This document shows positions 6,001-57,859 of a DNA stretch of 64,000 nucleotides, piece after piece. How positions within the stretch are numbered: position 1 is the first letter of the stretch; the number at the start of each line of letters is the position of its first letter. The notes beneath the pieces were generated by a model. The model was not told where the DNA came from. It searched no databases and was given only the letters and a program-made list of their open reading frames with translations. The position numbers were made by a program, and so were the translations under genes. The stretch comes from Aurantiochytrium sp. KH105 (Eukaryota > Sar > Bigyra > Thraustochytrida > Thraustochytriidae), in contig BGKB01000208.1 in the NCBI GenBank assembly GCA_003116975.1, forward strand, positions 4,045 through 68,044, written 5' to 3'.

Positions 6001-8640
6001 TGATCTCTCCCGTGTAGCCATTGCCTGCAGATCCAGTCTCCACAGTGATCGAGCCACTCGTGCCTGTGCTTCCACCCGTTGCTGTGTCGAGACGCATGTG
6101 ACCACTGTCGGCCGTCGTGCCTCGACCCGTGGTGAGGGTCACAGATCCGCCGGTGTCCGCGGTCGTTTGGCCTGCCTTGATGTCGACAAGCCCGCCTGCA
6201 CCACTGTCGCCGCTTCCAACGGAGAGCGTTACGTCACCGCCCTTGCCCGACGTAGCAGCACCAGTCGTCACCTTGAACTCGCCGGTGTCGCCGTTGCCAG
6301 CGCCGCCGGTCGCAATTGTCACAGCACCGGACTCACCCGTGCCGCCACCGGCTGCAGTCACAAGCTCAATGTTGCCACTCGTCGTGTCTGTGCTTGCTCC
6401 CGTCTCCAGCCGAATCTTACCACCAGTCAGCTTGTTCGCGGCGCCGCCAGTCAGAAGAATGGAGCCACCTTCACTTGCTGCAGCTCCAGTGCCTGCGCCA
6501 CCAGTGATCTCCACAGCTCCACCAGCAAACGTACTTGCGCTCGAAAGACCGGCAGTGATGGTGATCTTGCCACCGGCGGCGGTGTCACCGTCACCAACAA
6601 GAAGAGAAATATCACCGCCCTTGCCAGACGTCGCATCTCCAGTCGAGACCATGATCTCTCCCGTGTAGCCATTGCCTGCAGACCCAGTCTCCACAGTGAT
6701 CGAGCCACTCGTGCCTGTGCTTCCACCCGTTGCTGTGTCGAGACGCATGTGACCACTGTCGGCCGTCGTGCCTCGACCCGTGGTGAGGGTCACAGATCCG
6801 CCGGTGTCCGCGGTCGTTTGGCCTGCCTTGATGTCGACAAGCCCACCTGCACCACTGTCGCCGCTTCCAACGGAAAGCGTTACGTCACCGCCCTTGCCCG
6901 ACGTAGCAGCACCAGTCGTCACCTTGAACTCGCCGGTGTCGCCGTTGCCAGCACCGCCGGTCGCGATAGTAACAGCACCAGACTCACCCGTGCCGCCGCC
7001 ATCTGCAGTCACAAGCTCAATGTTGCCACTCGTCGTGTCTGTGCTTGCTCCCGTCTCCAGCCGAATCTTACCACCAGTCAGCACGTTCGCGGCACCGCCA
7101 GTCAGAAGAATGGAGCCACCTTCACTTGCTGCAGCTCCAGTGCCTGCGCCACCAGTGATCTCCACAGCTCCACCAGCAAACGTACTTGCGCTCGAAAGAC
7201 CGGCAGTGATGGTGATCTTGCCACCGGCGGCGGTGTCACCGTCACCAACAAGAAGAGAAATATCACCGCCCTTGCCAGACGTCGCATCTCCCGTCGAAAC
7301 CATGATCTCTCCCGTGTAACCATTGCCTGCAGACCCAGTCTCCACAGTGATCGAGCCACTCGTGCCTGTGCTTCCGGCAACGGCGGTTTCAAGACGCATA
7401 TGCCCACTGCTTGCTGTAGAACCGTAACCCGTCGTAAGACCCACTGAGCCGCCTGTAAGTGCACTCGTCTCGCCTGCCGTGATGTCAACGAGGCCGCCTG
7501 CCCCGCTATCACCGCTGCCGACAATGAGTGAAATGTCACCACCTTTGCCAGATGTGGCAGCACCAGTCGTCACTTTGACTTCGCCAGTGTCACCATCGCC
7601 GGCGTCACCAGTTGTCACGGTTACGGCGCCAGAATAACCAGTCGTACCACCATCAGCAGTAATCAGCTCGATGTTGCCACTCGTGGTGTCTGTGCTTGCA
7701 CCTGATGTCAAGGAAATCGTGCCGCCGGTTTCGTCCGTTGCAGCACCACCAACAATCGTCACTGCTCCTCCGCGGCTACCCGTTGCACTCGAGCCCTCGC
7801 CGCCTGTAATTTCCACTGCTCCACCGGCCACCGAATCAGCACTGGAAAGGCCAGCAGTGATCGTGATCTTGCCACCAGCAGCAGAGTCTCCATCGCCAAC
7901 GAGAAGGGAAATATCACCACCCTTGCCGCTCGTTGCAGCACCCGTCGAGAGCTTCACCTCGCCGGTATCACCGTTGCCAGCGCTGCCCGAGAAAACCTCA
8001 ATTGCCCCACTAATACCAGTGCTGCCTGCAACTGCAGTTTGAAGACGCATGTTGCCGCTGCTCGTCGTGGAACCATACCCGGTGGTCATTGTCACCGAAC
8101 CACCTGTAAGCGCGCTTGTCTCTCCGGCGGACACAGCCACAAGGCCACCCGCACCTGAGTCTCCGCTACCAACAGTCAGTGAAATATCGCCACCCGTGCC
8201 CGATGTCGCAGCGCCAGTTGTAACCTGGAATTCACCAGTGTTGCCGTTTCCAGCTGACCCAGTTGTAATTGAGATGGCACCCGAGGTACCTGCGACACCA
8301 CCACTGGCCGTTGCAAGCTCAATGTCGCCGCTGCTTGTGGCTGTGCCCACACCAGAGGTAAGAGTGACCTTGCCACCGGTTGCAGGGCTCGACAAACCAG
8401 CTACAAGAATTACATCTCCACCCTGTCCAGTATTACCATCCCCGACAAGAAGCGAGATATCCCCTCCTTTGCCGCCTGCCGCAGCGCCTGTCGAGAGCAG
8501 AATTTCGCCGGAAGATCCCGCGGTTGCACTGCCCGTTCGAACTTCTGCGGCACCTGATACTCCACTCGTACCTGCATCAGCTGTTGCGAACAGAAGCGCG
8601 CCACTACTTGTCGCCGTTCCTGCGCCAGTAGTAAGCATGA
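1..8640 (-). repeat. Near-identical 651-bp (217-residue) coding super-repeats in the giant gene
   Basis: A recurring ACC/ACG-Thr landmark (antisense of GGSVT) occurs at 9, 660, 1311, 1584, 2235, 2886, 3537, 4188, 4839, 5490, 6141, 6792, 7443 and 8094. All intervals are 651 bp except 1311 to 1584, which is 273 bp, an in-frame partial unit of 91 codons. Each 217-residue unit holds about 14 subunits of 14-18 residues such as GGDITLTVGSGNSGA and SGEVFISTGAATSGK. Two sequence types alternate between 2235 and 4839, giving a local 1302-bp period. Copies are highly similar here; the same order of subunits is still recognisable but diverged toward the N-terminus. Growth by unequal crossing-over is the likely cause. 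Confidence 0.9.
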
Positions 8641-11600
8641 TGTCGCCACCGGTTACATCGCGGGAATCACCAGCGTCCAAGGTGATCGCCCCGCCTTGAG
8701 TGTCGCCCGTGCCAACCAAGAGACTGATAGCCCCGCCATTCGACGAAAGCGCTGTTCCAGTCGAGAGACGAATCTCACCAGAAGCACCGTATGTTGTGGT
8801 TCCAGTTGAAACCAGCACAGGACCGCTCACTCCGGTGAGGCCCGAATTCAGCGTCTTCAACGTGATGGCGCCGCTTGAGGTCGCAGAACCATAGCCAGAG
8901 TACAAGGAGATGGACCCACCTGTTTCGTGCGTGGTGTTGCCAGCGCGGACCTTAACGTCACCTCCTTCATTCAGGGTTCCTTTGCCAACGACCAGGCTGA
9001 TGTCACCGCCCTTGCCACCAAGCGAAGATCGACCAGTCTCCAATTGAATCTCTCCACTCGAGCCGAGGGTCGCAATTCCTGTGCTGAGACTCATGGCACC
9101 ACTCACGCCACTATTTCCAGCGTTGCTCGTAGCAATGTAAATGCTGCCGCTTGAGAACTCTGCCGACTTGCCAGAAACCATGCTAATACCACCTCCGGTG
9201 AGACCAAGCACCCCTCGGGTGGGCCCAGCTGACAGAGTGATGTCGCCGCCAGCGCCAGAGTCCCCGGATCCAACAGTTAAGGAAATGTTGCCGGCGCGAC
9301 CGGTCGAGGCACGACCAGTCGTCAGCTGCACCTCACCTGTGCTTCCAGCACTGGCGTCGCCCGAACGGACCGCAACCATGCCAGTGGCGCCGAGTAAACC
9401 AGCCCGGGCAGTCTCAATGACAATTTTACCGCTAGACGTGGCAGTACCATTTCCCGATTGTAGGTAGATATCACCGCCAGTTAGCTCGTCACTCGTACCG
9501 GCAGTAATGTTCACATGACCACCCTTAATGCCTGTCGAAGCGCCCACGAAAATCTGCACATTGCCTGCAGCACCCTTGGACGAGGTGCCCGTGACGAAGC
9601 TTAAACTTCCAGTTCGACCTGCGGTGGAGTTTCCTGTCCAAACGGCGATATCTCCGCTTTGCCCCTTGACCCCGGCATTTGGCGTGTAGAGATTGATCTT
9701 TCCGCTCGAAGTGGCCTCGCCCGAACCAGAGCGAATGACAATGCCACCGCCAGTAGCCTTGGTGCTGTTTCCGGCTGCCACGAACACGCTGCCTCCTGCA
9801 CCAGAGCCGGAAAGCCCAACTTGCACATGAAAGCGGCCTGCTCGCCCAGCTGGAGCAGACCCGGTCGTAATGTTGATGAGTCCAGTGTTTGCCTTGATAC
9901 TGTTCCCAGTAAAGAGTTGAAGCTCTCCGCTCACGCCAGAGGTCCCTGCCTCACGAGATGCAATTGTCACATTCCCGCTCGAAGAGCTGGTGCCTGAACC
10001 AGAATAAATCTGTACGTTGCCGCCAGCGCGCGAGTTACTCGTACCGGCCACCATTGTGATGTTTCCACCACGCGAATCTGTGGAGTTGCCAACATAAAAC
10101 TCAATGTTACCGGCACTTCCGCTCAGGGCCTTGCCCGTAGAAAAGTGGACTGTTCCACTCGAGCCTTGGGAGGAAGTTCCGGTGCGCAAGAGAATCTGGC
10201 CACTGACGCCAGATCTACCAGCATCACCCGTTGCAAAGAACAAATCTCCACTCGACGTTGCAAGTCCTCGGCCTGTATTGAAGCTCACCTGGCCACCGCG
10301 ATGGGTCGTGCTCGAACCTCCAGTGAATGACACATTGCCACCACGATCAAACTTGCCAAGACCAGGGGAGAACCACATGTTTCCAGAGGCCCCATTGGCA
10401 CTGTCACCCGTCTCGAATGAGATACTACCACTCGCACCGACAGCAGCAGCACCAGTGTAGAACTGAATACTTCCGCTCCGACCAAGAGGACCCGAATCCT
10501 CGGAATGAATGAGAACGGACCCGCTTGTGGTCTTCTGTCCAAAGCCCGCGGCGATCGACACAGAACCCCCCGTTTCGCTTTCGCTGCTACCTGCCTGGAT
10601 GACCACATCGCCTCCAACTCCAGAAGCAGAGTCGCCTACCAGCACAGAAACACCACCGGCGTGGCCGTCTGCAGAGTCACCAGTGGCAAAAAGTAGATCT
10701 CCCGTATCGCCAGCTTCAGCTGACCCAGATGTAAAATGAACCTTTCCACTGGAGCCACTGGACAAAGCGTCAGCGGTGTGCACGATTACATCTCCGCTGT
10801 CACCTGATTCGCTTCCACCCGACAAAAGTTTCATATTTCCGCCGGCCCCCTTTGTCGCGTTACCGCCATAGAACTCCACAGGACCACCGCTGTATCCACT
10901 TCCACCCCAGAACGAAAGATTTCCTCCCGTTGCAAAGTTACCACTCGTGGACCCAGCCTGAAAGACGATTGCAGCTCCATCGTCACTCATTGACTCGCCT
11001 GCTGTGACAAGCACGTGTCCTCCGCGCCCACCAAGGCCGGCACCGGTGCTCATGACAAGATTGCCACCATTAGTCGCACCCTCGCCGGTCTCAAGGGTAA
11101 TGTTACCTCCTGAATAGAGACCAGATACCCCTGCGGCGATCATGACGGCCGCACCGCGGCCCGCAGGCGACTCGCCCGCAGCGACGCGCACACTTCCAGC
11201 ACTGCCGCTCTTGGCCGTGCCCGTTTGCAACGAGATTTCGCCGGATGCACCGGTCGCACCCGATCCGGTTGCGAGTCTAATTCGGCCTGATGTGCTGGAA
11301 GCCGCCGTCTCCACAGAAAACTCCCCACTGGCAGCGCGAGAGCTCGCGCCCGTCGAAACGCGCACAGACCCGCCGCTCAAGCTACTTCCGGATCCACCAA
11401 CCAGCGTGATATTTCCGCCCCCGGCATTGCCATCACCAGAGGCAAGGCGAATCGCGCCACCGTCGCTATCCGCAAGCGAAGTGTCGGAACTCGCTCCAGC
11501 TTGAAGGGAGATTCCGCCACCCGAGCCCTTTGTGGAGTTGCCTGCGGTTGCAACAATCTCGCCGCCGCGACTGCTCTGGCCATTTCCAGAAACGAGAGCA

Positions 11601-17600: not shown

Positions 17601-20600
17601 GTTGCGCCGACCGACAACTCGATGGAACCAGCTGTCTCACCCTCTTCATCAGTGGATCCAGTCGACAGGAGGATGGACCCCGACTGTTCGACAGCATCGC
17701 TCGTTGTGAGCTCGATCGAACCCGACTGTAATGAGTTGGCGCCCGTGGTCAAGCTGATCGAGCCCGAGCCACCGGCATCGTTGCTTCCGGTTGAAACAAG
17801 GACATCCCCGCCCACGCCCCCCTTCTCAGTGGTATCACCACTACGGAGGACAGCATGGCCGCCCCGAAACTTGCGCGATCCTGCGCCGGCCTGCATCGTC
17901 AGATCTCCACCGTTACCCGACGTACCCGCGCTTCCGGCAAAAATGGAGACCGAGCCACCGCTTGCCTCTCGCCCTGTCGTGGAGCCTGCGCCGAGGGACA
18001 AGTCGCCCGCGCCTGTGCTTCCATCTCCGGCATGAATTGCAACGGCCCCACCATTCGCAGAAGAGGAAGTGCCACCAAGGATCTCGACAGAACCGGCTTG
18101 ATCCTCTTTCGACGCACCAGCAGAAAGCGCAACGCTTCCGCCAAATGACTCGTCGCTCGGTCCAGCCTGGAAGTCGAGGCTGCCGCCACCTTGGCCACCG
18201 TGACCTGCCGAAATGGCGATCGACCCCGAGACACCCTCGGTAGCGCTCCCACTGGACAGCGTCAGGTCACCAGACTTTACTCCCTTTTCTTCGCCTCCGG
18301 CAGAGCTGATGGAGATTGCTCCAGTGCGAGAGCCTGTTTCCGTGGCTCCACTAAGAACCTCGATGTCGCCACCGAGACCCCGAGTCGACCGTCCACCGAG
18401 AACTTGAAGCGTCCCCGCATTGCTGGCACCCGCGCCAACGCGGAGACGCAAATCGCCAGAGCGCTGGTCGGCAGCTCCACTCGACACTTCTACGTCTCCG
18501 CTTTGAAGGTTGGCAGTGCCAGAAGTCACAGCAACCGACCCAGAGATTTCTTCAGGAGCTTCGGCCGAGGAGATGATTACCTCACCTGAGGACCCGAGAA
18601 CGCTGGACCCGCTTGCCAGTGAGAGCATTCCGCCAGTAAATTTGTTCGCTGATCCCGCAGAGATCGATACCTGGCCGCCGCGCCCGTCCACGTTGCGAGC
18701 ATGGCCTCCCTCAATGAGAATGTCTCCTCCGGACGCTTCGCCAGAGTCTGAAGCTGCGCGAAGCACGACAGAACCAGCGCTGCCGAGACCTTCGTCGCCC
18801 GACGTACTGTCTCCCGGAGCAATCACGATATCACCGGCGACAGTCTCAGCGCCTGCAATGGTTCGGAGCTCGATGGCTCCACCACGAGCTTCGGTTGACG
18901 CGCCAGCGGAAATACGTACATCTCCGGCGACGACATCTGAGCTACCGCTCTCAATAAAGACGCTCCCGGCCGAGGACTCGCCCGCATTTCCTGCCCGAAG
19001 TGTTACGTTCCCGGATTTGCCACCGTTCGAGTTGCCAGAGGCCACAACAATATTACCACTGTCGAGCTCAGCCGCGGCGCCAGAAGAAATGCGAACGTTA
19101 CCAGTTGCAGACGAAGCCGCAGAAGCAAAGGTGATATTGCCGCTTGAACCCTGAGCGCCGCCTTCGCCAGAGTACATCAAGACAGAACCACCGGAGATGC
19201 GATCGCTCGCTCCGGCACCGGCTCGAAGATCAAGCCAGCCGCCAGTTACCCCAGTCACCCGGGAAGTACCTCCGCGCACGGTGACAGGGCCAGCATTGAA
19301 GGCCGTCGCCTGGCTGTCCAACGTGGCTTCGAGAAGCTCGACGTCTTCTACGAATAGAACATCACCGCCTTGAATAGTGAGGTCGCTCGTAAGACCATTC
19401 GAAGAGCTTCCCGATTTCAGGCTCAGACCACCTCCAATGGCACCATTGCCTCCGACGAGGCTTGCCTGACCACCCGTGCCCAGAGCACTTGCGCCAGCCT
19501 CGATCGTTACCTCACCACCTTGTGCGCTTGCAAGAGTCGTCGCAGAAGAGCCTCCGGCCTGAATTGCAACGGAGCCACCGCCTTCCGCGGTCGATTCCCC
19601 TGCGCTGAAGCTGAGTTTACCCCCAGACGTGCCCGAACCGGCATTTAGGGAAATGTCGCCCGCCGTGCCACCATTCGGTGCAGACCCTGAGGAGAGCGCG
19701 ATGCTTCCGCCTTTGGAGGAAGACTCGCCAGCAGCAAGCACAATTGACCCTGCGGGTCCTTTGCTCGTAGCCCCTGTCCGGAGCGCGAGCTCGCCACTTT
19801 GTGATGACGCTTCGCCTGTTTGAACAAGCACTCCTCCAGACGTGGCGCCCTGAGCTACACCACTGCTCAGCTCTACCCCACCAGAGGACTGATCCGAATC
19901 GGCGCTACGAAGCGCAAGACTGCCCGATTGCCCCTCGGAAAAGCTGGCGCCCGTGGTCACTTCGACGGCCCCTCCCTGACCTTGTGCTTCATAGCTCGAG
20001 CCTCCTGCGAGACGCAGTGCGGCGGCTCCGCTTTGTGAAGACCCCGGGTTGATCTCAACATCTCCCGCGCGACCCTGCGAGCTTCCTGTTCCAAGCGACA
20101 GCATGCCAGAAGTCGCAGCGGAGGAAACTGCGCCTGAAGCAACATGGATAGAGCCGCTACCCTGCGCGCTCGATGCAGCAGTCGCGAGTTCAAGGGCACC
20201 TCCAGTAGCCAAAGCACTTGAGCCTGCCTCGATCACGATATCTCCACCTTGCATCGCTTCGGCTCTGGCCTCACCTGCCCTGAGCGTCAGCTTTCCGCCA
20301 GAGCTGGAATCAGAGACACCAGGGCCAATGTTGATGCTGCCCGCAGCACCGCTGGTCGAAGAGCCCGTTGCAATGTTAACATCTCCTGCTTTGCCCATAA
20401 CCGCATTACCCGTGGTAATGTCGATGTCACCACTTGCGCCCACTCCCGCAGTAGCGGCAGAATAATAGTCTCCGCCATCCGCCGTTGTCACACGAACAGA
20501 AGCACTTTTGTCAGTCTCATCAACGCCAAGCGTGAACCGCTTGTGTTGGACCTGGAATGCGCCGAGAATATCAAGCGTAATCGCTTGCTTGTTCACTTCG

Positions 20601-23600
20601 TGAAACTCCTCGAGCGCGAAGTTTTTGTCCGGGAAAGACAAGTTGGAGATGATATTGATGTACTCGGGGAAGACTTCACGAAGCTGCTGAGCAATCACAC
20701 CACGCACGACCTTGCTTTCCGTCATGCCCCGAATCGAGCGCCACTGCGCGTTGTATTCGTATTGTTTCATCTCGACCTGCTGCAAACGGTGGTAGACGCT
20801 CGCTTGATCGACGTCCTCAATATTCTGCTTGATCCGTCGATCAGACGGGTACACCACGGAGGTAGCTTGGATGGGAACATGCGAGTAAATTTCGTTTTGT
20901 CGGATGCGGAAGGTGATGTTTCCGTCAACCATGTTCTCCGTGTTACCAATGGTAAACTCGGACTCCGAGTTCGAAAACTCGATTCGCGTGTCATGTCCGG
21001 GCTCGAAGACTACGTCCTCGGACGGGCTGGAGCTCAAGCGAACCTCGCCGGCACTCGATACTTCGATCCGGGGCTCCTGCAGAGCATCTTGAATGAAGAC
21101 TCCGCTAGTTGGGCCGTCGCCTGGTGTCATAAGCACCGAGCCAGAAGATGGGCCAGACCCTGCGCGTAATTCAATGTTTCCAGCAGTAGCACCGGTTGAG
21201 TTGCCTGTCTCGAGGACGATTGAGCCACTCGAGCTAGCTGCCCTTCCGGAGGCCAGATAGACATCTCCCGAAGAACCAGCTGCGCTGGCGCCGCTGACAA
21301 CAGAAACACCACCTGTCTCTCCACTACTTACAGCAGATGAGATTTCCACGCGACCAGTTTCTTCCGCTCCAGCGCCAGAAGCGAATACAAGAGCACCTCC
21401 CACTCCTTCTTCAGAGAAGCCGGCCTGTGCAACAAGGTCGCCCCCATCTGTGGACCCGAGACCGCCTCCAGCACGAAGAAGAATTGTTCCACCAAGAGCA
21501 GAGGAGCTTGCGCCTGCGAGAATGGAAACATTACCCGCTGCGGCTCGACCATCACCCGCAATAAGTTCAAGATTTCCGGCATCGAGCCCAGTCGACGCTC
21601 CGCTGGAGATGCGCACACTTCCTCCGAGGCCTGCGGTGGAAGACCCCGCAGCGAATGCAAGGTCTCCGGCCTGCATTGAGCTATCGCCAGATACAAGGCG
21701 AATCGATCCTGCGACGCCAAGGTTGCTCGCGCCCGTAGAGATACTGATGTCACCGCTCTGGGCATTGAGACTTTCAGCGGTGGCGACCGAGATATTACCA
21801 GAGTCCCCGCCGAGAGAACTTCCGCCGCTTTGAAGATGTACGCTTCCGCCTTGGGCGTCCCCGAGCGATGATCCTGCGGTGATATCCACATGTCCACCCG
21901 CGGCGAGACTCGAGTCGCCACCAAGGAGTGAGGCGCGGCCTCCAGCCGCACTGTTGCTGCTGCCTGCGGCAAGACGAATCGCACCTCCTTCTCCCGTGCT
22001 CCCGTCGCCAGCACTCACGCTGGCGGTACCTCCAACTGTGCTTCCCGCGCCGGCAACAGCAATGAAGTCCCCGCCGCGTCCAGATCGTTTCGCACCCGCT
22101 GAGAGACGGAGTGCACCCCCAACATTCGCGACGGTTCCGTTGTCGGTCCCGACCATCACCTCAATATCTCCAACTGGACCCTCGCGAACGTCTCCTGATT
22201 GGATTGAGACGCTACCCGAGGACCCATAAAAGGTTTCGCCCGAGGCCACACGTACATGGCCGGTGTCAGGGCGATCTTCTGTTCCATCAGTAGATTGAAT
22301 GGCAACCGAAGAGCTTCCGCCCACATCAGAAGCGCCAATCGTGAAATGAGCATGCTGTTCCTGCATTGCTGCAACCAGATCGATGATGAGACCAACCTTG
22401 TCGATAACGTGAAAGTCCTCGTACCAGATACCTTGCTCCGGAATACCCCAGGCTTTCACGCTCACGTGCTCAGGAAAGACCTCGCGAAGTTGTTGCGCGA
22501 TGACGCCGCGGACAAAGCTTCCATCATGACGTCTCACCTTGGCCCATTCCTCGGTGTACTTGTACTTTTTCACCTCGATTGTCTGAAGTCTCTGCAAGAT
22601 TTCATTCTTGTCTGCATCCTGAATCTCGCGCTTGATGCGACTGTCTGAAGAACTTTGTGTGCTCGGCGTGTGCAAGGGCACATGGGAGTCGACCTCATCG
22701 TCTTCAATCCGAAACACAGTCTCGTTACCCGTGCTCGACCAAAATCGCGTTCCCGTGGCAGAACGAGCTTGAAAATCGAGGGTTCCAGCTGCGTCGACAG
22801 TGATCGCCTCGCTATTATATGACTTGAGCGCGAGCGCACCGCTGTCGTCAACTGTGACGACCGCATCTCCCGCTGAGGTTTGCAGTTCCACCGTGGAATC
22901 AGTGCCGCCAGACGCGAGGATGACATTGCCGCCAGTGCTGCCACCAGATGGAACAGCACCACCCCGAATGCGCACATCACCGCTCAGCGTTGGTCCTTCG
23001 CCTCCAGTGATGGACACACTGCCGCCTGATGCTGAAGCAGCGCCAGCTGAGAGGACGATGTTCCCGCCTGTTGCGCCAGCACTGTCTCCCACCAGAAGAT
23101 CGATCGAACCAGCTTGAGCAGTTTCTGCTGCTCCAGTGCTGATGCTGACGCCACCCGAGTTCCCGGCAGATCCTGTCGAGAGCGAAAGCTCGCCCGAGTT
23201 GTGCATTGCGTTCGAGCCCGCAGCACCAGTAGCGATACTCACCGTGCCGCTTCCAAGGGAGCTCGAGTCCGCGGATCCGAGCGCGATGCTTCCGGATCCA
23301 TCAATGCCTTCACCCGAGAGGATCGACACATCTCCACCAGTGCTCAACTCCGCAGTCGCGGCACCTGCCTGGATCTCGACGTTCGCGCCACTTGTTGCAA
23401 CACTACTGGAACCAGCTGAAACGTGAACTGCACCTGCTGCTGCTCCATCGCCGGTCACCACACTTGTAATTCCGGAAGACCCACTCGAGCTTGCTCCAGA
23501 ACCAAATGTGACCATTCCCGAGTCGGCAGATGTTGCGTCAGCCGAGGAAATGGCCACACTTCCAGTGGCCCCGCCGCTCGGCGCTTCACCGCTTTGCATT

Positions 23601-26600
23601 AGCAATGAGCCACCAGCAGTTGTGCCGGCGCCGGCAGAAAGCTCAATATTTCCACCGGCACCTTCGTCAGCGCCACCGACTGCAAGTACGATTTTACCTG
23701 CCGCGCCATCAGCAGCGGATGCACCGGTGCTCAGCCTGATTGCGCCAGAAGATGCACCGGTGGCCACACCAGTGACAAGACTGATATCTCCAGTAGCACC
23801 GTCAGTGGAGTCAGCCGTTGACAACGACACTCCACCCGTCGTACCTGAGTCGAGTGAGGCCCCAGATACAATCGACACTTCGCCGCCAGAAGAGGCTCGC
23901 ATGGTCGTCTCGCCAGCGCGGAGAGAAATTCCAGCGCCCTGAGCACTGTCACTGCTTCCTGCCGAAAGGCTGATCGCACCAGCTTGACCTGAAGACCCCA
24001 CGTCACCCGTGCTCAGCTCAATGCTCCCGGTGTCGCCATTTGTCGAGGCTCCGGTTTGCAAGAGCACCTTACCACTCGAACCGCCCTGCACTCCACTGGT
24101 GAGGATCTCAACATCTCCGCTCGAAGAAGTAAGAGATGCGCCGCTACGCAAGGTCAATTTGCCTCCTGACAGAAACTCCGAGTCCCCACCAGCAATGAGA
24201 ACGCGAGCCCCAGCGTGACTCTCACTCGCCGTTGCCCCGGGCACAATATTGATCGCGCCTGCTTCGCCAAGAGCAGAGGAGCCAGTAGTAATTGAGACCG
24301 ATCCAGATTCGGCAGAAGTAGAACTTGCGGCACCTGTGCTTAAAGAAATGCCCCCAGAGCCGAGCCCAGAGGCGTTGGTAGCAAGGAAAATGGATCCGCT
24401 CGAAGCGAAATCGCCACCCCCACCTGCATGCAAGTACACGCTACCTCCAGAACCTCCAGCAGCGCTGGTATTACCAGCAAAAATAACGACATCGCCACCA
24501 TTGCCATCTTGGGACTCGCCTACCTCAAGTTCGATGTTACCAGCCATGCCGTCTGACACCGAAGTGCCTGTTGCAAGGCGCACGGCACCACTCGTGCCGG
24601 CTGCACTACTTCCAGAACCAAGGATCACGGTTCCAGAATTCCCGAGAACAGCCGCGCCAGAGCCTAGAGCGAGAGTTCCCGAATCGCCTGCTGCGCCCCC
24701 CATTGCGGTCTCGATCTGAATTGGACCACTGCTCGCTTCAGAGGAGTAACCAGAACGAATGGCCACGCTTCCGCCGCGAGCACCGTCACGATTTGAGGTG
24801 GTGTTTCCTGCATCAAGAGTAAAATTTCCTCCCGTTCCAACAGACGCCACCCCAATCGAAATGGCAATGTTGCCTGCAGCACCATAATCGGCATCGCCCG
24901 TAGTCAGAGACAGCATTCCGCTGTCGCCCACAGAGGATGTTCCTGTCGACAAGGAGATCTTCCCTGATACACCGGCTTCCCCTGCAGAAGCCGTGGCAAT
25001 GTTCACATCTCCGCTTGTCGACGCCGAACTCGCGCCACTCTGAAGATTGATTGCGCCACCTGTGGTTCCTTCCCCGGTACTCTGCGAGCCAGCGGAAAGG
25101 AAGACATCCCCCCCTGTGCCTTTGGTTCCGGAGCCCGCGCTAATGGTCACGCTTCCGCTAGCCCCATGTGTCGATGCTCCGGATCCGAGGAAAACAGCTC
25201 CGGAATCACCATTTGTGGCTTCGCCAGAGGCCATTTGAACGGACCCACTTTGAGAGCTGGACGAAGATCCGAGGGATACAGAACCACTGATTGCCTCACC
25301 AGGACCAGAGAACAAGCGCAGGCGACCTCCAGAGGCGTCTTCTTCCGTTGCGTTTCCTGCCATGATGGAAACATCAGCTCCAGCGCTGCTGGCATCGGAA
25401 GCACCTGCGACAATCTCGATACCTCCGGCTTTACCTTCGCTCGCGACGCCAGTACGGAGTTGCAAGTTGCCTGAAGAACCCACGGCGGCTCTTCCTGTTG
25501 TCAAACTCAGGGTTCCCGAGGTCTCTTCGGCGCTCCCAGTCGCAATTGCAAGGTTGCCACTGTTCGACGTCAAACTCGCGCCAGATTCGATTGTAAGGTT
25601 GCCACCCAGGGCCTTCCGCGAAAGACCTGCTGAGATATTGAGATTTCCTCCTAGCGAAGTTCTTGTGCTTGTTCCATACGAAGGCCCGGCGCCGATCACG
25701 AGATCGCCACCTTGGTCATCGCCTGCTCCTGCAGAAATGTTCACGAGTCCACCACTTGCTTCGTCAGAAGTTCCCGAGGCAATGAGAATGTCTCCACCAC
25801 TTCCAGACGCACTACGCCCAACTGCAACGCTAATTGCGCCGCCACGACCATTGGTCGCCGCACCGGAGAGAATATCGATCGCGCCACCAGTGCCTGACGA
25901 GGCACCACCGCTGGCGAGGGTGATGCTACCTCCCGATAACGAGGAAGTCGCCGCTCCAACCGAGAGGGAAATGCTGCCAGACGAACCCTTCAAGCCAGCA
26001 TCAGGTGTTGAGATCGAGATCGTTCCGCTAGAGGAGAGGGAGGATTCGCCCGAGCGAAGTTCGATGTTGCCCCCTGTCCGAGACGCGGACGAAGTCAAGG
26101 CTACTTGAGATCCTGCAGATATCTCGACCCCTGATCCAGACCCGGAAGCAGAGGAGCCGACCGCGATAGAGACGGAGCCTGCCTTTCTTGAAGAGGAGTC
26201 ACCCGTCGAGAGTTCGATTCCACCCGTCGCGCCAGAGCCAGAGCCACTTGCAAGCGTGACGGCTCCAGTTCCGCCAGGATGGGCGCCGGCTTCCCCTGCA
26301 GAAGCAATTGAGATGTCCCCTGAAGTCCCGGTTGCTGTGGAAGATGCTCCAGACAGAATATCCACACGTCCGCCCACACTCGACGCACTGTTACCGGCAT
26401 GCAAGGTAATGTCTCCGCCGGCTTCAGCGCTCGCGCCGACGCTGAGATTTATACTACCGGCTGAATCACTCAAAGCACTTCCCGTGGAGATTACAACAGA
26501 ACCCGAAGGAGCCTCCTGGCTATCTCCAGTAGCGAGAGAGATGGCTCCTGTAGTGGCCTCCCCACTCGCCGTTTGCACCGAAAAGCTTCCAGAAGACCGT

Positions 26601-29600
26601 CCCCCGCTCGCGCCAGTTGAAAGGGAAATCGCGCCACCGGGTCGAGCTCCTGCCGCAGATCCGGCATCAAGGCGAATATCCCCACCGCCCAGGGAGCTAT
26701 GGCTCCGCGAGGAGTCATCGTCACCAGCTCGAATGGAGATGCTGCCTCCGCCTCCCGAGGCAACATTTGCCAAGTGATGACCAGCGCTCAGTGTCAGATT
26801 TCCGGCACGGAAGCTTCCAGTCGTGTTGCCCGCAGCAACGTCGACATTTCCACCTTGTTCAGCGGCACCAGCAACCAAAGAGATGGACCCACTGGTGCCA
26901 TCTTCAGAGCCACCCGTGTGCAGCGAAAGCCCACCAGAGCCGCCCGGCCCTTCCGCCGTCGAAAGGGAAATGTCGCCAGATGTCGCAAGTGCACCGGCAC
27001 TGCTGGTGGCAATCTGAATGCTGCCACTTCCTCGAGCGTCGCTCGAACCAGCAACAAGCGAAATTGATCCCCCAGTACTGCTCGAAGAGCTTCCAGCGAA
27101 TATCGAGATGGATCCGCCAGTTCCGGATTCCGAGGCGCCGTTTTCGAGAATGATATCACCCGATGAAGTGGCCGCCGAGCCTGTACGGATGCCGACTGAG
27201 CCCGTTGTGCTTGAAACGGAATCGCCCGTCTCAATCTCAACGCTTCCGCTCATGGACCCACCCGACTCGGACGCCGCGGCCGAGGCAATACGCACCAAGC
27301 CGCTCGTTGCGCTCTTGGTTTCTCCGGACAAAATCTCAATGCTGCCACCATCCGCACCAGGCGCGATAGTTTTCCCCGCCATGAGGGAAATCATCCCACC
27401 GTCACCGGCAGAAGACTCGCCGACCGCGACGATGATGTCGCCAGCCACGCCACGAGACTCAGACGAACCAGTATTCAGAGTTATGCTACCCGAGTCGCCC
27501 TCTTCCGCACTGCCGGTATCAAGCACAATTCCGCCACTATTACCTTGAGAGCCAGCCTGAGCCGTGGAGAGAATGATACGCCCGCTATCTGCTCTGGCAC
27601 TGCCACCAGAAGACAGGATGACACTGCCGCCAGTTGCGGAGTTTCCAGCGCTGTAGCCTGCCGTCAGCGAAATATTGCTACCAGCAGTATCAAAGCTCGA
27701 GCCCACGAGGAGATCTATGGAGCCAGCAGCGCCATCGCTTGGCACGTCGCCCGTGGCAACGTAGATGCCTCCGGAACCCCCCGCGTCGGATCCGCCAAGA
27801 CCGGTCTCGAGGCTAATACGCCCGCTCGATCCACTCGTCCCAGCGTCTTGCGAAGCGATGCTCACATTTCCGCTCGTCGAAGTCTCGCTCGAGCCACCGA
27901 GCACGGAAACGCCTGGGGCAGTGCCATGAGAGACATCACCTGCGGCGATCCGTACCACTCCGTCGTCCGCGGTATCGACGGCGTCGCTGTCGCCAGGTTG
28001 AATAAAGATACCTCCAGCACTGGCGGACGCCGAGTTTCCTGTTCGTACGCGGATAGCACCCGATCCTTGAGCGTCTCCCGTACCAGTAGAGAGGTTGATT
28101 TCCCCACTTTGCCCGGCTGAGCCACCAGAAGCGGTAGCAATAGCCACCCGGCCGCTAGAAGACGAGACACTCGATCCAGATGTGATAGCGATATCGCCGC
28201 CGACGTGATTCACGGCTCGTGTGTGGCCTGCCGTGATGCTTACGCTACCACCGTCACCAGACTCACCAGATCCGACGTTAATGTCGATATTTCCTGCACG
28301 CCCTGCGTCAGCATCTCCCGTTGCAATGCGAATGGCGCCAGACGCGTCTTCCGTCGCAAAGCCGGTGGACAAATAGATGGGTCCACTTGTCCCGCCTGAG
28401 CCGCTTCCAGAAGTTTCAATGCGAATCGCTCCACTTGAGGAGGTAGTGCTTCCGCCGGACTGAATGATGATTTCGCCACCGGTACTACTCGTGGCGTTAC
28501 CAGCATATACTTGAACACTGCCACCTTGGTTTGAAGATCCGAGAGTGCGACCCACGGAAAAGGTCAGGCTCCCGGCTGTCTCGTGCGACGTGCCTGACGC
28601 AAGAACGAGGGAGCCGGATCGACCGTCCAAGTAAGTCGCGTGGCTCGACGCAATGGTGACGTTACCACTCTGCGATCTGCCAGAGCCGGAAGTAATGTTT
28701 ACGCTGCCGCCAGCACCGGTTTGCGATGTGCCAGCAAACAGGGTAAGGTTGCCACCACTTTCACTCGAGGACTGACCAGCTTGCAATAAGATAGAACCAC
28801 CGTCTTCGCTCGCTTGGCCTGCCGACAAGGTGATTGACCCCGATTCGCCCATCGAGGCACCTGCGGTCTCCAGGATGATTTCACCAGAAGACCCCGAAGC
28901 CACTCCGCCAGCACCCGTTGAAAGGCGGAGAGTACCACTGTTACCATTGACACCTCCGCTGGGGGATTCGATGACGACATCGCCGCTGTGCGTTTGCGTG
29001 CTCGACCCGGAGGAGATACTTACATCGCCGCCTGCCGTGTTGGTCATGTCTCCAGCGCTAATCTCAACAGCACCAGCCGTGCCTGAGTCTCCAGATCCAA
29101 CCTTGAGAGTGATGTCTCCACCTTTGCCCTCTGTTGCATCGCCAGTCTGAAGCGAGATCGTCCCAGAGCTTCCCTCGGCAGTTGTACCTGTGTTGATGCG
29201 TACAAGTCCCGAGGCCCCACTCTGTGCGGCATCGCTGGTCTTCAAGGAGATGCTTCCGCTCGAGCTCTCGGAGCTTGAACCACTGCGAAGGACAATCGAT
29301 CCAGCCTCAAAACCACCAGAAGTGACATCGCCGGCACGCAAGTCGAGCGACCCACCTTGGGCATCCGTACTGGATCCCACAGAGAGCGAAATGCGCCCAG
29401 CGCTGCCGTCGCCTGCGTCGCCGGTCGAAAGCGAAACTTCACCGGTATCGCCCTTCGATGCGAAACCTGTGGTGAGCGCGATGCGTCCCGATGTAGCACC
29501 AGCCGACGTTCCAGCGCTCGCGGTCTGCAGCAGGATGCTGCCGCTGCTGACGCGCTCGCTCTTTCCGCTCGTCAGGATCACGCTTCCGCCGGTCTCTGAC

Positions 29601-32600
29601 ATTGCTGCCTGACCCGTGGCACCAGCAGTGATCTCCACATTGGCCGCCTCGCCTTGAGTTGCCTTTCCAGCGGTAAGACTGATCTTCCCGGCGCCGTCGG
29701 CACCCGAGCCGGAAACAATCGAGACGCTACCTGAAGAGTACGTTGTAGCATTGCCTGATGCGATGTGAACGGCCCCGCTTGTGGCCATGGCGTTGGCCGT
29801 GCGGAAAGTGAGAGAGCCACTCTTATGCAACAACGAGTCAGACGCGCCAGAGCTAATGAGGACAGATCCTCCCGTTCCATCATCGCTATCACCCGCACGG
29901 GTGGTCAGGTTCCCGCCTCCCGTGCGGAGCCCGTTGCTCTTCCCCACGAGTACCGAGATACTTCCACTTGCGCCCTTGGGAGAATCGGCTGTTTGGAGAA
30001 GAATCGCACCGCTTGATCCCCCAGTATTGCCGGAGGTTCCGGTCTGAAGGGAAATAAGACCACTGTTCGCTGTCGACGCGTCGACATCTGCAGTGGAAAT
30101 GCTGACGGCTCCAGTGCTGTGGTAGCCACTACGCCCAGAGGTAATTTCGACGTCACCACCCGATGCCCCAGTTGAATATCCAGCATCCAAGGTAATTGAA
30201 CCACCCTTGCCAGAATCACCGTCACCGACACTGAGCTTGATGGGACCGCCATATCCAGATGATGCCGTTCCTGTCTGAAGAAGAATCTCGCCGGAGGGAC
30301 CTTCCTCAGTTTCGCCGGTTGCAACAGTCACCGCGCCACTACGCTTTCCAGTGCTCACCTGAGCGCTCGCAGTGCGAATGAGGATTTCGCCGGTGTTAGC
30401 AGTAGAGGATTTCCCAGAAAAGATCTCCACCGCACCTCCGGTCCCACGGCGAGCCGAGCCAGCTTCGATTGTGACGGATCCACCCACGGAGGAAGTCGCA
30501 GTGGATACAGTTGTTCCACCCGAAATATACACGTGTCCGCCACGAGTTGCAGCGTCGGTGGTGGCATTTCCTGCATCAAGGTAGAGATCTCCGCCGGCGG
30601 AAAGCTCAGAGTTACCTGCAGAGACGCTCACATTCGCGCCTTGCGCGGTCCGCGTGCCACCAGCTGCGATTTGAATGGATCCTGCAACATCAGCTGGACT
30701 GGAGCCATCAACATCGCCAGTGTTCAGCGAAATCCGTCCCGATTTGTCCGAGGCCGCAGAACCTGTAGCGAGACGAATGCTGCCAGTTTCATCCTCGTCG
30801 CTATTTGGTGTCAACAGAGCGATCGAGCCGCTTGCACCGTGTGTGCTCCCTCCTGCAGAAATGATCACATTTCCGCCGTCGCCAGACGACTGGTTTCCAG
30901 CCCGTAGTGTGAGCAGGCCACCTTTGCCTGCAGAGCCAGAGCCGGCGAAAATGTCAAGTGCGCCACCAGCGGCGTCGTCAGAGTCTCCCGTGCTAATCGT
31001 CAGCGTTCCAGAATCTGCGTCAACGCTGCTTCCCGTCGCAAGAAGCATTGATCCGCTTCTTCCTTCTGTTCCTTCGGCGGAGGCAGTCTTCATCTCGATG
31101 ACGCCGCTCTCGCCCTCATCGCTACTACCACTCGTAATGTAGATCGCGCCACCTTGGTCACCGGTTCCCATAGCAGCACCAGCTGTAAGACTAATGTTTC
31201 CAGCAGGTTCCCGTCCACCTGTCGTATCGCCAACGCTGAGGAAGATTGACCCGGCGGCACCTGCGGCGCCGCGTCCGGTGCTGAGGAGCACGGATCCGCT
31301 TCCGCCACTGGCTGCATTCCCAGTGTTCAGACGCAAAGCGCCAGAGTCACCTAGAATTCCAGCATTTGGGGTCGCGATGAGCACACTTCCACTCGTGGTC
31401 GTGCTAGAGTAACCAGAAAGCAGCGAAATGGTACCACCGGTGGTTGCGGCGCTTCCTGTGACGTTGCCAGCTCGAAGATATATTCCGCCGCCGACTCCCG
31501 AGGAGCCTGTACCGACCTGAAGACGAATATTCCCGCCAGAAGTCTGGGCGCTTCCTGTTGAGAGCTCGACTTCTCCCGAGGATCCGCGCGTTGCCACTCC
31601 AGTGAGAACCTGCACCTTTCCAGATACACCGCCTTGGCCAGACACCGCGGCCCCTGCGCTTGAAGTTTGCAGCAGAATCGATCCACTCGAGGTCTGCGAT
31701 GAACGTCCCGTGGTGATATTCACCGACCCGCCCACGCGCGAACTTGCAGTGGAACCCGCGAGCATTGTGATGTTGCTACCCGCTTCATCTGCAGACTCGC
31801 CAACTCGCAGGGAGATCGCTCCTGCAACAGCGCCAGTGCCTTCTGCATCTCCTGTTTGTATTGAGATTTCCCCAGAATCGGCATCATGCGATGCACCTGT
31901 GCGAAGCGAAATTGCCCCACTGACGCCCTCAGAGCCGCCTTCCGCAGTCACGATGCTGACTGCACCGCTGCTCGTGTCATCGGAAGCTCCGCTCGTCAAG
32001 ACGATCGATCCTCCCGTAGTGGATTCGGAGGCGCCCGCCGTGAAGAGTACGTCACCGGCCTGACCGCGGTTTGTTTTACCCGGCTGAAGGCGAATGGAGC
32101 CAGCATCACCCAGATCCGTGTTACCGGTTTCAATCACGACAATGCCCGAATCGCCTGAGTCGGCTGTACCCGTCGCGAAAGCAAGTTGGCCCGTTGACCC
32201 GGAGGAACCTGCGTCGGCGTCCGCTGATGCAAGACTAATCGATCCTGTGGTCCCAAGGCGGGACTCACCACTAAAAATGGAGATGGAACCGCCCTCTCCC
32301 TGCCCCGCAGCGCGCCCGGCTTGAAGATCAATGGCTCCAGCGGTCTTCAGTGAGCCCGCAGAATTTCCTGACCGCAACGAAATGGAGCCACCCTGGCCTT
32401 GCGAGCTCGACGTGCCATTGCCAGCCACCAGGTTCACGTCGCCAGCTTTGTCATCAGAGACAATGCTTTCTGAATTGCCTGCCAAGATGTCCACGTCCCC
32501 AGCGCTCGCCGTCGAAGCTCGTCCCACGGCAATGCGCACGCTACCAGAAACTCCAGCGTTGGTGGCGCCCGTGCCAAGTCGGAGGTTGCCAGATGTAGCC

Positions 32601-35600
32601 TCATCAGACCCAGTGCCAGAAGCAAGGATGATGTCACCGGAACCTTCCTCGCTTGCAGCTTGCGATTCAATGCGAACTGATCCGGACGCGCTGGTCGTAC
32701 TGGCTCCAGAAAGGATCCTAATGGAGCCTCCCACACCAGCGTCGCGAGACGTCATATTGCCCGCCGTCAAAACGACGTCGCCACCTGCACCGGAAACGCC
32801 ATTTCCGACCTGCAACGAGATTGTCCCGCCAGCCGCCGCATCTGACATGCCGGTGAAAAGGCTCAAGGATCCAGAGTTTGCATCGCTCGAATTTCCAGAG
32901 GAAATCTCGATGTCGCCGCTCGAGCCGTCTGAGCCATCTGAGCTATGCGTACGGATAACAACGCTGCCGCTGGAGGCTTCATCGGAAGCGCCGCTCGTAA
33001 GCGTGATATCCCCACCGTTGCCACCGGTTGAAGCGCCGGCATCAATGACAATTTCGCCTCCGTCAGCGTTCTTCGAGCCGGCGCCCACTTGAATTCGAAT
33101 GTCTCCGCCAGCCCCATTCGTTGAGTCGCCAGTCTGAAGAAGAAGTTGGCCCGATTCAGCGCCCACCGTCTCGCCCGTCAGAAGTGAGATGGAGCCGCTC
33201 TTGGCGGTTGCATAAGTAGCAGCAGCGGTCTCAATGAGAATGTCGCCGGAGGAGCCCAATGAAGACGACCCGCTTTCGAGGTGCAGGGACCCTCCACTCT
33301 TTGCAGAGTCACCGGCGACATCGCCTGCCAAGAATTCAATGTTTCCTCCCGCACCGCTCGACCCAGCCCCCACATAGAGCCGGATTCCGCCGGCGGTGGC
33401 ATCCAAGGCATCACCTGTGGCAAGCGTGATGACACCAGAATCTTGGCCCACACTATCACCGGTACTAAGCGAGATAAAGCCACTTGCACCGTCAGCCCCG
33501 CTGTCGGCGGTCGCGATGATCACATTTCCGCTCGTTGTCCGCTCGCTTGCACCCGAGGTGATCGAGACATGGCCACCAGTCTCGCCCTCCTTGGTCAAGG
33601 TGTCGCCTCCGCTGAGAATCAGGTCCGCACCTTGGCCTGACATGGAAGCACCGACATCAAGAGAGATGGTGCCTGCGCGGCCGTTGATTCCATACCCAGA
33701 GGTCAAAGTGATATTTCCTGCATTGCCTTCCGTTGCGTTGCCTGTGGAGAGCGTAATGGACCCAGATGTTCCACCAGCAGACCCACCATTGGGCGTCCGA
33801 ATAATAATCTCGCCGCTGCTTGTGCGTGCAGAAGTACCAGACTCAAGCGTAAGCGCACCGCCAGTTGCGTCAGCTTCATTGTTATCGCGCGACGTGGAGC
33901 CGGCCACGAGGGATAGCACGCCGCCAGGTCCGTCGTCTGCGCCGCCTCCAATGATGGAGATGGATCCACTCGAGCCTTCCGCATCGCCAGTGGAGATTAC
34001 AATGGCACCAGAGTCGCCCTTGGAGGATGCACCCGTGCCGATCGAGATTCCACCGCTGACGCCGCTAATGCCGGCATCTGCAGTTTCGACAGTGATGCCT
34101 CCGCTTGACGTCGCACTGCTTGCTCCGCTGCGCAGTGTCACGTTTCCACCGGTGACAGTTTGCGCGAGGCCTCCTGCAACAAGGACATGACCGCCAGCGG
34201 CATTGGAAACAGACCTGCCGAAAGCGACACCGCCTCGAATTTCAATGTCGCCGCCATCACCGCCTTCAGTTTCATCGATGCTCAAGCCAGCGCCAGCTGT
34301 GAGAGAGAGGCGTCCGCCCTGCCCCTGGGTCGTGTTTCCGGCCCTGAGAAGAATCTGGCCTCCGTCGCCCTGGGTTCCAGGTCCTACGGTCAGACTAATG
34401 TTTGCACCGATCTCTGCAGCCCCGGTGGCCATTTTGATCTCTCCCGCCGGCCCATTCAGAGCAGGACCGGTGCTCAACTGAATGCTACCCGAGCTTCCTC
34501 GCGCGTTGGCGGCCTTGGCCGTACGGATAACGATGGATCCGCTGCTCGAGGCCTCGGACATGCCGGATGCGATCGCAATGGAACCACCCGTAGCTCCCGT
34601 CGCAGTCATGTTACCTGCCTGGATCGTGACATTGCCACCGGTTCCAATAGAACCGGTACCCACGGTCAACGAAATGTTACCTCCATGGCCATTGAGTCGG
34701 GAGGTTCCCGTTGCAATCGCGAGGCTCCCCGATGACCCAAAGGACGAAGTGCCTGTGGCAAGACGAATGTTGCCAGAGACACCCCTAGATCCAGCATCGG
34801 CCGAGGCAATGGTAACGTTGCCACTTGAACCCTCGAGACCTCTTCCGGAAAACATGGTTAGGTTGCCGCCGAAACCACCTTGCGAGAGGCCAGCAGCAAC
34901 ATAAACCTCGCCACCCGTGTTGCTCCGTGCGTCGGACCCAAGCGTCGCGCCCGCGCGAATGAGTACACGTCCGCCAAATCCTGCGCCCGAGTCGGTATTG
35001 TTTCCGCCGAGAATCTCGACCGGTCCGCCGTGCATTCCTTCTTCAGACGTTTCACCAGCCTCGATGCGAACACGTCCGCCGGTACCCTTGGTGGCGCTTC
35101 CAACGCTCAAGTCAATGCGCCCTCCAGCCCCGCTCTTGGTAGCATCGCCCGTGCTGAGGAGAATAGCACCCGAGGAACCCTTGGTGGCTTCGCCTGTGGA
35201 GATGCGAACGAAACCGCTTGCGCCACCAGCACCGGAACCGCCCGAGGGTGTAGAGATTGCAATCGCACCGGATGTGCTCGAAATGCCTTTACCGCTCGTA
35301 ATGTTGATTGAACCTCCCGTGTACGTAGCAGCAGAGGTGTCGCCTGCGTCAATAACAACCGCGCCTCCACTCAGACGCTGCCCAGTTCCAACGAGAAGGC
35401 GGATGTCGCCGCCGTGACCGCCGGTTGAGTTCCCCGACATCAAATCAATTCCACCAGAGGAGTCTCCGGTACCATAGCCAGTCTCAAGCTTGATGTAGCC
35501 GCTTCGGCCAGCGGATCCAGAGTCAGATGTCTGAAGGTTGATGTACCCGCTATCCTCGACAGCACCAAGGCCAGAGGCGAGCTCGATGGAACCACCCGTT

Positions 35601-57737: not shown

Positions 57738-57859
57738 CTCTTTTCCGAGTTGTTGTCGCAGTGGCGGGCGTCTTCGTGCCCGACTCACGGTCCGAGCGGC
57801 AAGCGCCTCCTCGTGCCCTGCCTACCGCGCGTAGCGCACCAACGCGCGAGCGTCGCCCT

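Follow-up and report, generated by a model that had tools for sequence, protein, structure and literature searches.

A giant minus-strand frame encoding a repeat protein

The window, i.e., the whole stretch of DNA that was analysed, comprises 64,000 nucleotides of contig BGKB01000208.1 from Aurantiochytrium sp. KH105, and its minus strand carries an open frame of 13,955 codons without a stop (window 2-41866). The frame runs past the window and, counted stop to stop up to the contig end, reaches 15,312 codons. The following features were distinguished, listed in the order of translation:

2-41788, minus strand: giant secreted-looking repeat protein, from Met27; its 3' part lies beyond window and contig
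41663-41734, minus strand: signal-peptide-like stretch MAQTSISFFKYIVAATLVATATGQ, from Met45, recognised by eye without a predictor
41363-41443, minus strand: core of a PSI (plexin) domain in the Cys-rich N-terminal part (PF01437)
22877-41266, minus strand: rod 1, about 6,130 aa built from Gly/Ser-rich repeats of 15 residues, [GSA]G-x-h-x-h
22649-22876, minus strand: cap/stalk segment ahead of the first S74 domain; predicted scissile bond between Ser6406 and Ser6407
22337-22648, minus strand: S74/ICA domain 1 (Ser6407, Lys6412), from PF13884, MYRF 7dc3, AlphaFold and Foldseek
21122-22306, minus strand: rod 2, about 395 aa, repeats as in rod 1, from repeat analysis
20846-21121, minus strand: cap/stalk segment ahead of the second S74 domain; predicted scissile bond between Pro7007 and Ser7008
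20531-20845, minus strand: S74/ICA domain 2 (Ser7008, Lys7013), from PF13884 and MYRF 7dc3
2-20506, minus strand: first 6,835 aa of rod 3, which runs on to the contig end

Autocorrelation of rod 1 peaks at lag 15, with 350 copies of the motif, and rod 3 contains a 217-aa super-repeat close to the window end. The PSI match has an E-value of 4.6e-05 (24.1 bits versus a cut-off of 23.1). Across the 13,955 aa in the window, the only large non-repeat islands are the N-terminus and the two cap/ICA modules (aa 6333-6590 for the first island), and each ICA domain is preceded by its own non-repeat cap. Judged by its N-terminus, the protein appears to be secreted.

The two haplotypes align gap-free across the 13,955 residues, and the gene is shown to be under purifying selection, with a dN/dS between haplotypes of 0.175 (13,955 codons); aa 45-300 are identical (100%). 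N- and C-terminal parts of the gene occur as a single copy each per haplotype and the contigs bearing them end within the repeat in both haplotypes, so that the full protein probably measures about 25,000 residues. The 3' part of the gene is probably located on other contigs (C91/C79), on which rod 3 probably continues as far as the C-terminal domain. Comparing this C-terminal domain with PHROGs, Pfam, phages and viral contigs gave no lead.

Two Peptidase_S74 domains in mid-protein

The motifs SDSRIK (aa 6407, window 22648) and SDRRIK (aa 7008, window 20845) lie 601 residues apart, and each is followed by GVIAQQLREVFPE. The PF13884 profile matched two stretches of the protein piece (whole-piece E 2e-24), and in a whole-genome search both domains exceeded the Pfam cut-off (E 1.0e-11 and 4.5e-11). 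The second haplotype (contig C159) encodes both domains in one frame with the identical 601-residue spacing, and each haplotype has two matches above the cut-off and an intact Ser-x4-Lys dyad in both. This confirms two genuine Peptidase_S74/intramolecular-chaperone auto-processing (ICA) domains in mid-protein, as the original prediction had claimed and had proposed to check with the Pfam profile; a chance motif is rejected by the profile E-values and the presence in both haplotypes. Genome-wide, ten S74 matches were found; two other proteins of this genome have a C-terminal S74. Since all ten matches could be placed, the 3' portion of the gene that is missing here was judged to contain no third S74, while an unassembled stretch could hold one.

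The AlphaFold model of domain 1 has blocks at pLDDT 89-96 across the domain, preceded by low-confidence beta-strands in the cap/stalk. Its best fold match is the MYRF structure 7dc3 (Foldseek E 6.1e-07, TM 0.72 by target length), and the ICA fold, seen for the domain 1 model only, also matches 3gw6 and 3gud. A single-sequence model of rod 2 and domain 2 had a mean pLDDT of 40.7 and was not interpreted.

The two cap/ICA modules share 41% identity over 151 aa, extending beyond S74 into the next stretch, and on this similarity they are related by duplication. Between haplotypes, dN/dS is 0.048 for domain 1 and 0 for domain 2 over few sites (aa 7008-7110 hold no nonsynonymous and seven synonymous differences), and with substitutions this few the domains do not differ clearly from the rods (0.07-0.21). 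The duplication, together with a separate cap before each S74, as at a fibre end, might point to three fibre genes, two of them ending in S74, that were joined by stop loss and left the domains as functionless relics. We consider such a fossil fusion improbable, because the active-site residues are kept although the modules share just 41% identity, and because dN/dS between haplotypes is low.

The premise of the original prediction that S74 normally sits at a fibre end agrees with our survey, in which at most 150 residues followed the domain in 136 of 138 viral and prokaryotic frames, although 6 kb flanks clip long frames and some frames begin or stop at the locus end. From Ser to C-terminus, the distance was 87-134 residues in all 88 viral loci, eight of which came from the two-domain alignment and 80 were the best of 208 from a query with this genome's own C-terminal S74. 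The same query yielded the 40 prokaryote loci, of which eight lacked a recognisable SDxxxK close to the match, one had a frame left open on the 3' side and one (L171) had a frame stopping inside the match. In the giant protein, by contrast, the two Ser are 601 residues apart, and the window contains more than 6,900 residues after the second. Two S74 domains in one frame occurred in none of the 138 surveyed frames, and among the matches listed the open-access literature contained nothing on giant proteins of thraustochytrids or on eukaryotic or tandem S74 domains.

Relationship of the two domains to MYRF

By sequence, 7dc3 was the best solved structure for each domain alone (E 2.1e-07 for domain 1 and 2.7e-11 for domain 2) and for both jointly. 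In a tree of 127 rows, the two domains, MYRF and an S74 fused to ATAD3 formed one clade (98/95), which was recovered at 96/87 in a 70-row tree to which three near-hits from phages had been added; both trees rest on 116-122 columns, a single MYRF sequence and long branches. The smaller tree comprised 30 randomly picked viral rows and the remaining bacterial rows, leaving out identical rows and four long-branch rows. Support for MYRF with the two domains alone was 38 in a quick tree, and grouping the two domains with the C-terminal S74s of this genome was not firmly excluded (AU test, p 0.056). Both domains share with MYRF the catalytic Ser and Lys, the equivalent of Lys671, and Y615, Y617, G635, I637 and F666; among those cutting-hole residues of MYRF that were compared, differences occur at 621, where both domains have W, at 657, which is P in domain 1, and at 663 (Y, L). 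A Pfam scan covering 2,330 of the 13,955 aa showed no Ndt80-type domain, with PF05224 matching neither the genome nor 14 controls.

Affinities to phages were also found. With viral rows included in the profile, a phage fibre ranks above MYRF, and the stretch of rod 2 and ICA 2 hits tail-fibre families of phages (phrog_1980, E 3.5e-19). More distant relatives exist in phages and viral contigs (25-32% identity), and a bacterial scan with the two-domain alignment gave no lead. The nearest kin found for the two domains is the MYRF ICA and not a phage or giant-virus fibre, contrary to the ancestry initially presumed, and a direct phage-fibre origin is rejected on both trees, not firmly. Phage or bacterial ancestry fits better for the two C-terminal-S74 proteins of this genome.

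That the gene itself is an assembly chimera, stems from contamination or belongs to a phage or giant virus integrated in the genome is already disfavoured and seems scarcely credible. Such a source would suit the S74 and tail-fibre profile matches, the remote relatives at 8 viral-contig loci (26-31% identity) and those in 33 phage records, and the contig breaks within the gene. However, two haplotypes agree without a gap, scans of viral contigs with each domain singly found no relative, gene GC (0.57-0.63) is inside the range of the window, and the neighbours include ordinary eukaryotic genes, e.g., presenilin and an RSN1_7TM channel, with a Pfam match in six of nine frames. A viral insert is rejected by these neighbours and the agreement of the haplotypes.

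Predicted cleavage and assembly

MYRF is cut between P586 and S587, and T5 pb1 between Thr1263 and Ser1264; therefore, the cuts should fall before Ser and the new N-termini should be Ser, rather than the Asp6382 and Asp6983 originally named. In MYRF, S587A and K592A each abolish cutting, and K671 is near the cleavage site. Three chains are a straightforward prediction from two intact mid-protein S74 domains, and self-cleavage of both is likely. Numbering from Met27 puts the first Ser at residue 6,381, and the window covers another 6,947 residues after Ser7008. The predicted lengths of 6,381, 601 and more than 6,900 residues thus hold inside the window. Because the frame stays open up to where the contig stops, and other contigs probably carry the rest of it, the third chain probably has about 18,000 residues. 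An alternative start at Met45 would shorten the first chain by 18 residues.

MYRF processing needs a C-terminal leucine zipper, which is apparently missing from both domains: when the alignment is extended without gaps past V670, G, V and S in domain 1 and G, T and S in domain 2 stand where MYRF has L683, I687 and L690, and repeat-like sequence begins about 13 residues past the V670 equivalent in both. The domain 1 model extends a helix to aa 6518, where confidence declines to block means of first 69 and later 52; the helix perhaps reflects the pull of coiled coils in the alignment. As the zipper positions seem not to be kept, the two domains may trimerise poorly or depend on rod 3.

The apparent lack of the zipper would also suit ICA domains acting as internal trimerisation or register nodes of a continuous trimeric rod, either uncut or with cut pieces that remain joined. 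The shared module running beyond S74 agrees with such nodes, and one C-terminal foldon could hardly hold a 25,000-residue chain in register. Nevertheless, we regard this as rather unlikely, since in either haplotype both domains retain the catalytic Ser and Lys, and both domains also retain the third Lys, residues that a purely structural node would not need.

On balance, we lean towards a giant trimeric rod cut into three chains by MYRF-type ICA chaperones that trimerise it segment by segment. We infer a secreted, extracellular and probably trimeric giant fibre, in which a signal peptide and a Cys-rich PSI region are followed by three rods, with cap and ICA 1 between the first and second, cap and ICA 2 between the second and the very long third, and a C-terminal domain at the end. 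During folding, each ICA would align three chains in register and aid trimerisation of the stretch on its N-terminal side, and after folding the Ser-Lys dyad would cleave immediately before Ser. Two cuts would divide the rod into three trimeric fibres with lengths of about 6,380, 601 and about 18,000 residues, the second and third beginning with an ICA domain. A more far-reaching version, which we consider possible rather than probable, is that a polyprotein of about 25,000 residues yields three homotrimeric extracellular fibres of very unequal lengths at a fixed 1:1:1 ratio via two MYRF-type ICAs, with the ICA being an old eukaryotic module for trimer-gated internal cutting that would serve fibres, an ATAD3-like ATPase and a transcription factor alike.

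To our knowledge, the phage-like ICA of MYRF so far seemed the sole eukaryotic case. If its lineage also occurs in tandem in a giant fibre and in an ATAD3-like ATPase, the origin of the MYRF ICA can be put to the test, and internal cleavage gated by trimerisation may be a device used more widely in eukaryotes. Segment-by-segment register would further point to a way of keeping a fibre of repeats, about 25,000 residues long, aligned.

Comparison with known systems

An internal ICA is in itself not new, being present in MYRF and in a fibre from a Chloroflexi MAG (L176, JACQUR010000378.1); of the scheme originally thought undescribed, it is the presence of two per frame that has no counterpart in the survey. 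Phage tail fibres (endosialidase K1F 3gw6, T5 pb1, GA-1 neck appendage 3gud) share the fold family, the dyad and the succession of repeat or beta rod, cap and S74, but their S74 is the protein end, whereas thousands of residues follow in the giant protein. Like the latter, L176 has a repeat rod, an internal S74 (489 residues follow the match) and a further rod, and its C-terminal domain, which carries a GDxVxVxPP motif, bears a weak resemblance to that of the giant (BLASTP E 3e-04, one pair). Unlike the giant, it has a single S74, of bacterial/viral type in the 127-row tree, in 1,037 codons clipped by the contig on the 5' side; an L176-type query of viral contigs gave no lead. The S74-ATAD3 fusion of the same genome (C40/C64) resembles the giant in its non-C-terminal S74 that groups with MYRF, on a long branch, but has it as the N-terminal domain of an AAA ATPase, with Ser replacing the Lys671 equivalent (by eye). 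MYRF itself differs in being a transcription factor of the ER membrane, whose single ICA is accompanied by a leucine zipper and a DNA-binding domain of the Ndt80 type, whereas the giant is a secreted-looking protein with two ICAs, repeat rods and apparently no zipper. Both nevertheless have an internal ICA with the Ser-Lys dyad, the Lys671 equivalent and an expected cut before Ser, and domain 2 even shares with MYRF the Pro-Ser at its predicted cut bond.

Two S74 domains within a giant repeat protein

The original prediction had placed two Peptidase S74 domains in the middle of a single reading frame, and this was borne out: the Pfam Peptidase_S74 profile matches both segments above its cut-off, and both motifs are present, in both haplotypes. 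The protein (the giant) starts with a stretch that by eye resembles a signal peptide, followed by a Cys-rich region that includes a PSI domain and then by Gly/Ser-rich repeats of 15 residues with one hydrophobic motif per repeat, in three stretches (rods 1-3). Apart from the N-terminus, large non-repeat islands of the giant occur in the window only twice, with 258 aa in each case, and both hold a cap and an S74 domain.

Features of the giant (window positions; aa, residues of the giant)
2-41866, minus strand: open frame, 13,955 codons within the window
aa 6333-6590, minus strand: non-repeat island 1, 258 aa, cap and first S74 domain
22648 (aa 6407), minus strand: SDSRIK of the first S74 domain, then GVIAQQLREVFPE
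aa 6894-7151, minus strand: non-repeat island 2, 258 aa, cap and second S74 domain
20845 (aa 7008), minus strand: SDRRIK of the second S74 domain, then GVIAQQLREVFPE
aa 7488-7557, minus strand: small non-repeat island 3, 70 aa

The two modules are 41% identical over 151 aa, a segment that begins at the end of the cap and runs through the S74 domain into what follows, so that they are probably products of a duplication. Rod 2 together with the second S74 domain shows matches to tail-fibre families of PHROG (E 3.5e-19 and 2.7e-18).

Considering that six of nine neighbouring frames match Pfam families at E values of 0.001 or lower (presenilin, an RSN1_7TM channel, a thioredoxin-like protein, two MFS transporters and an F5/8-type-C-like protein), the region looks like an ordinary nuclear one; GC is near 0.6 and long uninterrupted frames occur in the window. 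The two MFS transporters (504 and 505 aa; window 56277-57788 and 59043-60557, minus strand) are perhaps a tandem duplication. A PfaA-like polyunsaturated-fatty-acid synthase match reached 930 bits over positions 6-1035, below the model cut-off of 1,010, and weaker matches were found in 11 of 14 controls. This match, the long frames and the GC content would fit a thraustochytrid.

Extent and conservation of the giant frame

The frame spans 15,312 codons from stop to stop and reaches the start of contig C208, which carries the window and whose left end is the run-off point. Its copy on contig C159 stays open almost as far as the right end, with a frame change there around a single N. Repeats of the giant also reach the right ends of contigs C91 (length 299,508) and C79 (length 374,174) or come close to them, and lead into a non-repeat C-terminal domain and a stop. 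Searched against the genome, the N-terminal 256 residues had two matches, on C208 and C159 only, and the C-terminal 178 residues were complete only on C79 and C91 (two of three matches), the third being a weak one (38%) that falls on the end of rod 1 and on the cap preceding the first S74 domain. The simplest reading is that each haplotype has a single gene, which its own repeats have split between contigs: about 15,300 codons and then about 9,900 more, counted from C91:269835 as far as the contig end; this length is an estimate, because C91 has a frame change between its long frames of 5,036 and 4,903 codons and the gap between contigs is unseen.

The contig pairs are read as haplotypes because of the pairing of the S74 matches and the alignment of C208 with C159, which is gap-free over 13,955 residues (13,437 identical); gaps in a further alignment are confined to the two ends. 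The frame behaves as a genuine gene, and the internal position of the S74 domains is no chimera of a single haplotype. Between C208 and C159, dN/dS is 0.175 for the whole frame, 0.048 for the first S74 core, where 1 nonsynonymous and 5 synonymous differences occur, and 0 for the second (0 and 7, respectively); since the rods also gave 0.07-0.21, the S74 domains are constrained, not demonstrably more than the rods. Rod 3 holds a 217-aa super-repeat (window about 2-10366, aa 10501-13955, 65% lag identity), where haplotype divergence is above that of the rest of the gene (dS 0.27). Both haplotype contigs terminate inside the repeat array.

Kinship with MYRF and other S74 proteins of the genome

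Both domains are kin to the intramolecular-chaperone auto-processing (ICA) domain of the eukaryotic transcription factor MYRF. In a PDB search with each cap and domain piece (186 aa), the only match at E up to 1 was the MYRF structure 7dc3 (2.1e-07 for the first, 2.7e-11 for the second domain). A profile of both domains again found 7dc3 (1.1e-12), with a phage fibre second (0.018); after addition of twelve viral sequences the phage fibre 8jov led (1.3e-20) before 7dc3 (2.1e-16), as expected from the mixed profile. The fold of the first domain agrees: its predicted model, from a 14-sequence alignment, has block means of 89-96 across the domain and a mean of 68.7 for all 217 residues, and a fold search gave 7dc3 as best match (E 6.1e-07, TM 0.72 by target length), with 3gw6 and 3gud next. 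Distant relatives were found at eight loci in viral contigs and among phages in 33 records, with E 6e-06 at best and an identity of 25-32% among the matches listed.

The whole-genome search gave ten Peptidase_S74 matches, five per haplotype, four of them in the giant (two on C208 and the corresponding two on C159).

Other S74 matches of the genome
C83/C85: C-terminal, 1,236-codon frame
C25/C199: C-terminal, 445/484-codon frame
C40/C64: near the N-terminus, 1,034/1,046-codon frame

The first two pairs (L017-L020) are smaller secreted-looking proteins. The third (L021, L022; C40:313866-314048 and C64:130239-130421) has its S74/ICA domain, with SDERLK intact, fused N-terminally to an ATAD3-like AAA ATPase (L021: PF13884 1.8e-08, ATAD3_N 2.5e-14, AAA 2.1e-23).

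In a tree of 127 rows, 105 of them different, a 98/95 branch separates the two domains, MYRF and the long-branched ATAD3-fused S74 of C40 from all other rows. This grouping recurred at 96/87 in a 70-row tree, after the addition of a cyanophage and of two related Escherichia phages, of which one is filed under Kuravirus, and the removal of four long-branch rows; in a quick version of the 70-row tree, MYRF and the two domains alone received a support of only 38. Built on few columns, a single MYRF sequence and no further protists, the trees make a eukaryotic ICA lineage likely without proving it. The C-terminal S74 domains of C83 and C25 sit among bacterial and viral rows in the 127-row tree (AU test against joining them to the domains of the giant, p 0.056), and the genome may carry S74 domains of two separate ancestries.

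Active site and proposed processing

Mapped on MYRF, both domains retain the dyad S587 and K592, as well as K671, Y615, Y617, G635, I637 and F666; position 621 is W in both, and the first/second domain has P/F at 657, Y/L at 663 and V/L at 679 (635 and 679 correspond to human G626 and V670, with an offset of 9). The mutations S587A and K592A abolish cutting in MYRF, where K671 lies near the centre and seems to act like the Arg of phage stalks (PMC8326128). The cut falls at P586|S587 in MYRF (PMC8326128) and at Thr1263|Ser1264 in T5 pb1 (PMC4690869); in the phi29 appendage the Ser is modelled on the mature side (PMC4690869). From the MYRF and T5 cuts, the new N-termini are predicted to be Ser6407 and Ser7008, in place of the Asp residues originally proposed.

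We lean slightly towards segmental chaperoning with self-cutting by both domains, whereby each ICA would align three chains in register, fold the sequence preceding it and cut before its own Ser, with predicted chains of about 6,380, 601 and about 18,000 residues. The analysis shows the domains themselves, their kinship, dyad and selection, and for the first domain the fold, and from these the giant is inferred to trimerise, to be cut and to serve as a fibre. The main doubt concerns the leucine zipper L683, I687 and L690, required for MYRF processing (PMC3742443): in an ungapped extension these positions are G, V, S and G, T, S, with the zipper apparently absent from both domains. This fits a rather unlikely alternative in which the ICA domains are uncut internal nodes of the rod, or means that the following rod provides the trimer contact; as a counterpoint, the model of the first domain runs its last helix to aa 6518, albeit with block means falling to 69 and 52.

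Comparison with known S74 proteins

Among viral loci from IMG/VR (eight found with the two-domain alignment and the best 80 of 208 found with the C-terminal S74 of the genome), the Ser lies 87-134 residues from the C-terminus in 88 of 88 (median 96), and in three phage records S74 is terminal as well (101-104 residues). More than 100 residues follow the match in two of 40 prokaryote loci, from Parcubacteria (L156, 223) and Chloroflexi (L176, 484). A profile search of every frame of at least 100 codons in the 128 loci, 2,412 frames in total, gave 138 S74 frames, none with two domains and two with more than 150 residues after the match, in a survey biased to C-terminal-type queries and with some frames cut by locus ends.

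The scheme had been put forward as undescribed, which stands in part: we found no description of a MYRF-type ICA twice in tandem within a giant secreted-looking repeat protein in the literature, where mostly the best matches were listed, whereas an internal ICA, the feature shared with the giant, is already known from MYRF, and an internal S74 occurs in the Chloroflexi fibre. That fibre, from a metagenome-assembled genome (JACQUR010000378.1; S74 at aa about 459-548 of 1037) resembles the giant on a small scale, with a rod, S74, a second rod and a C-terminal domain that carries GDTVVVGPP and is weakly similar to that of the giant.
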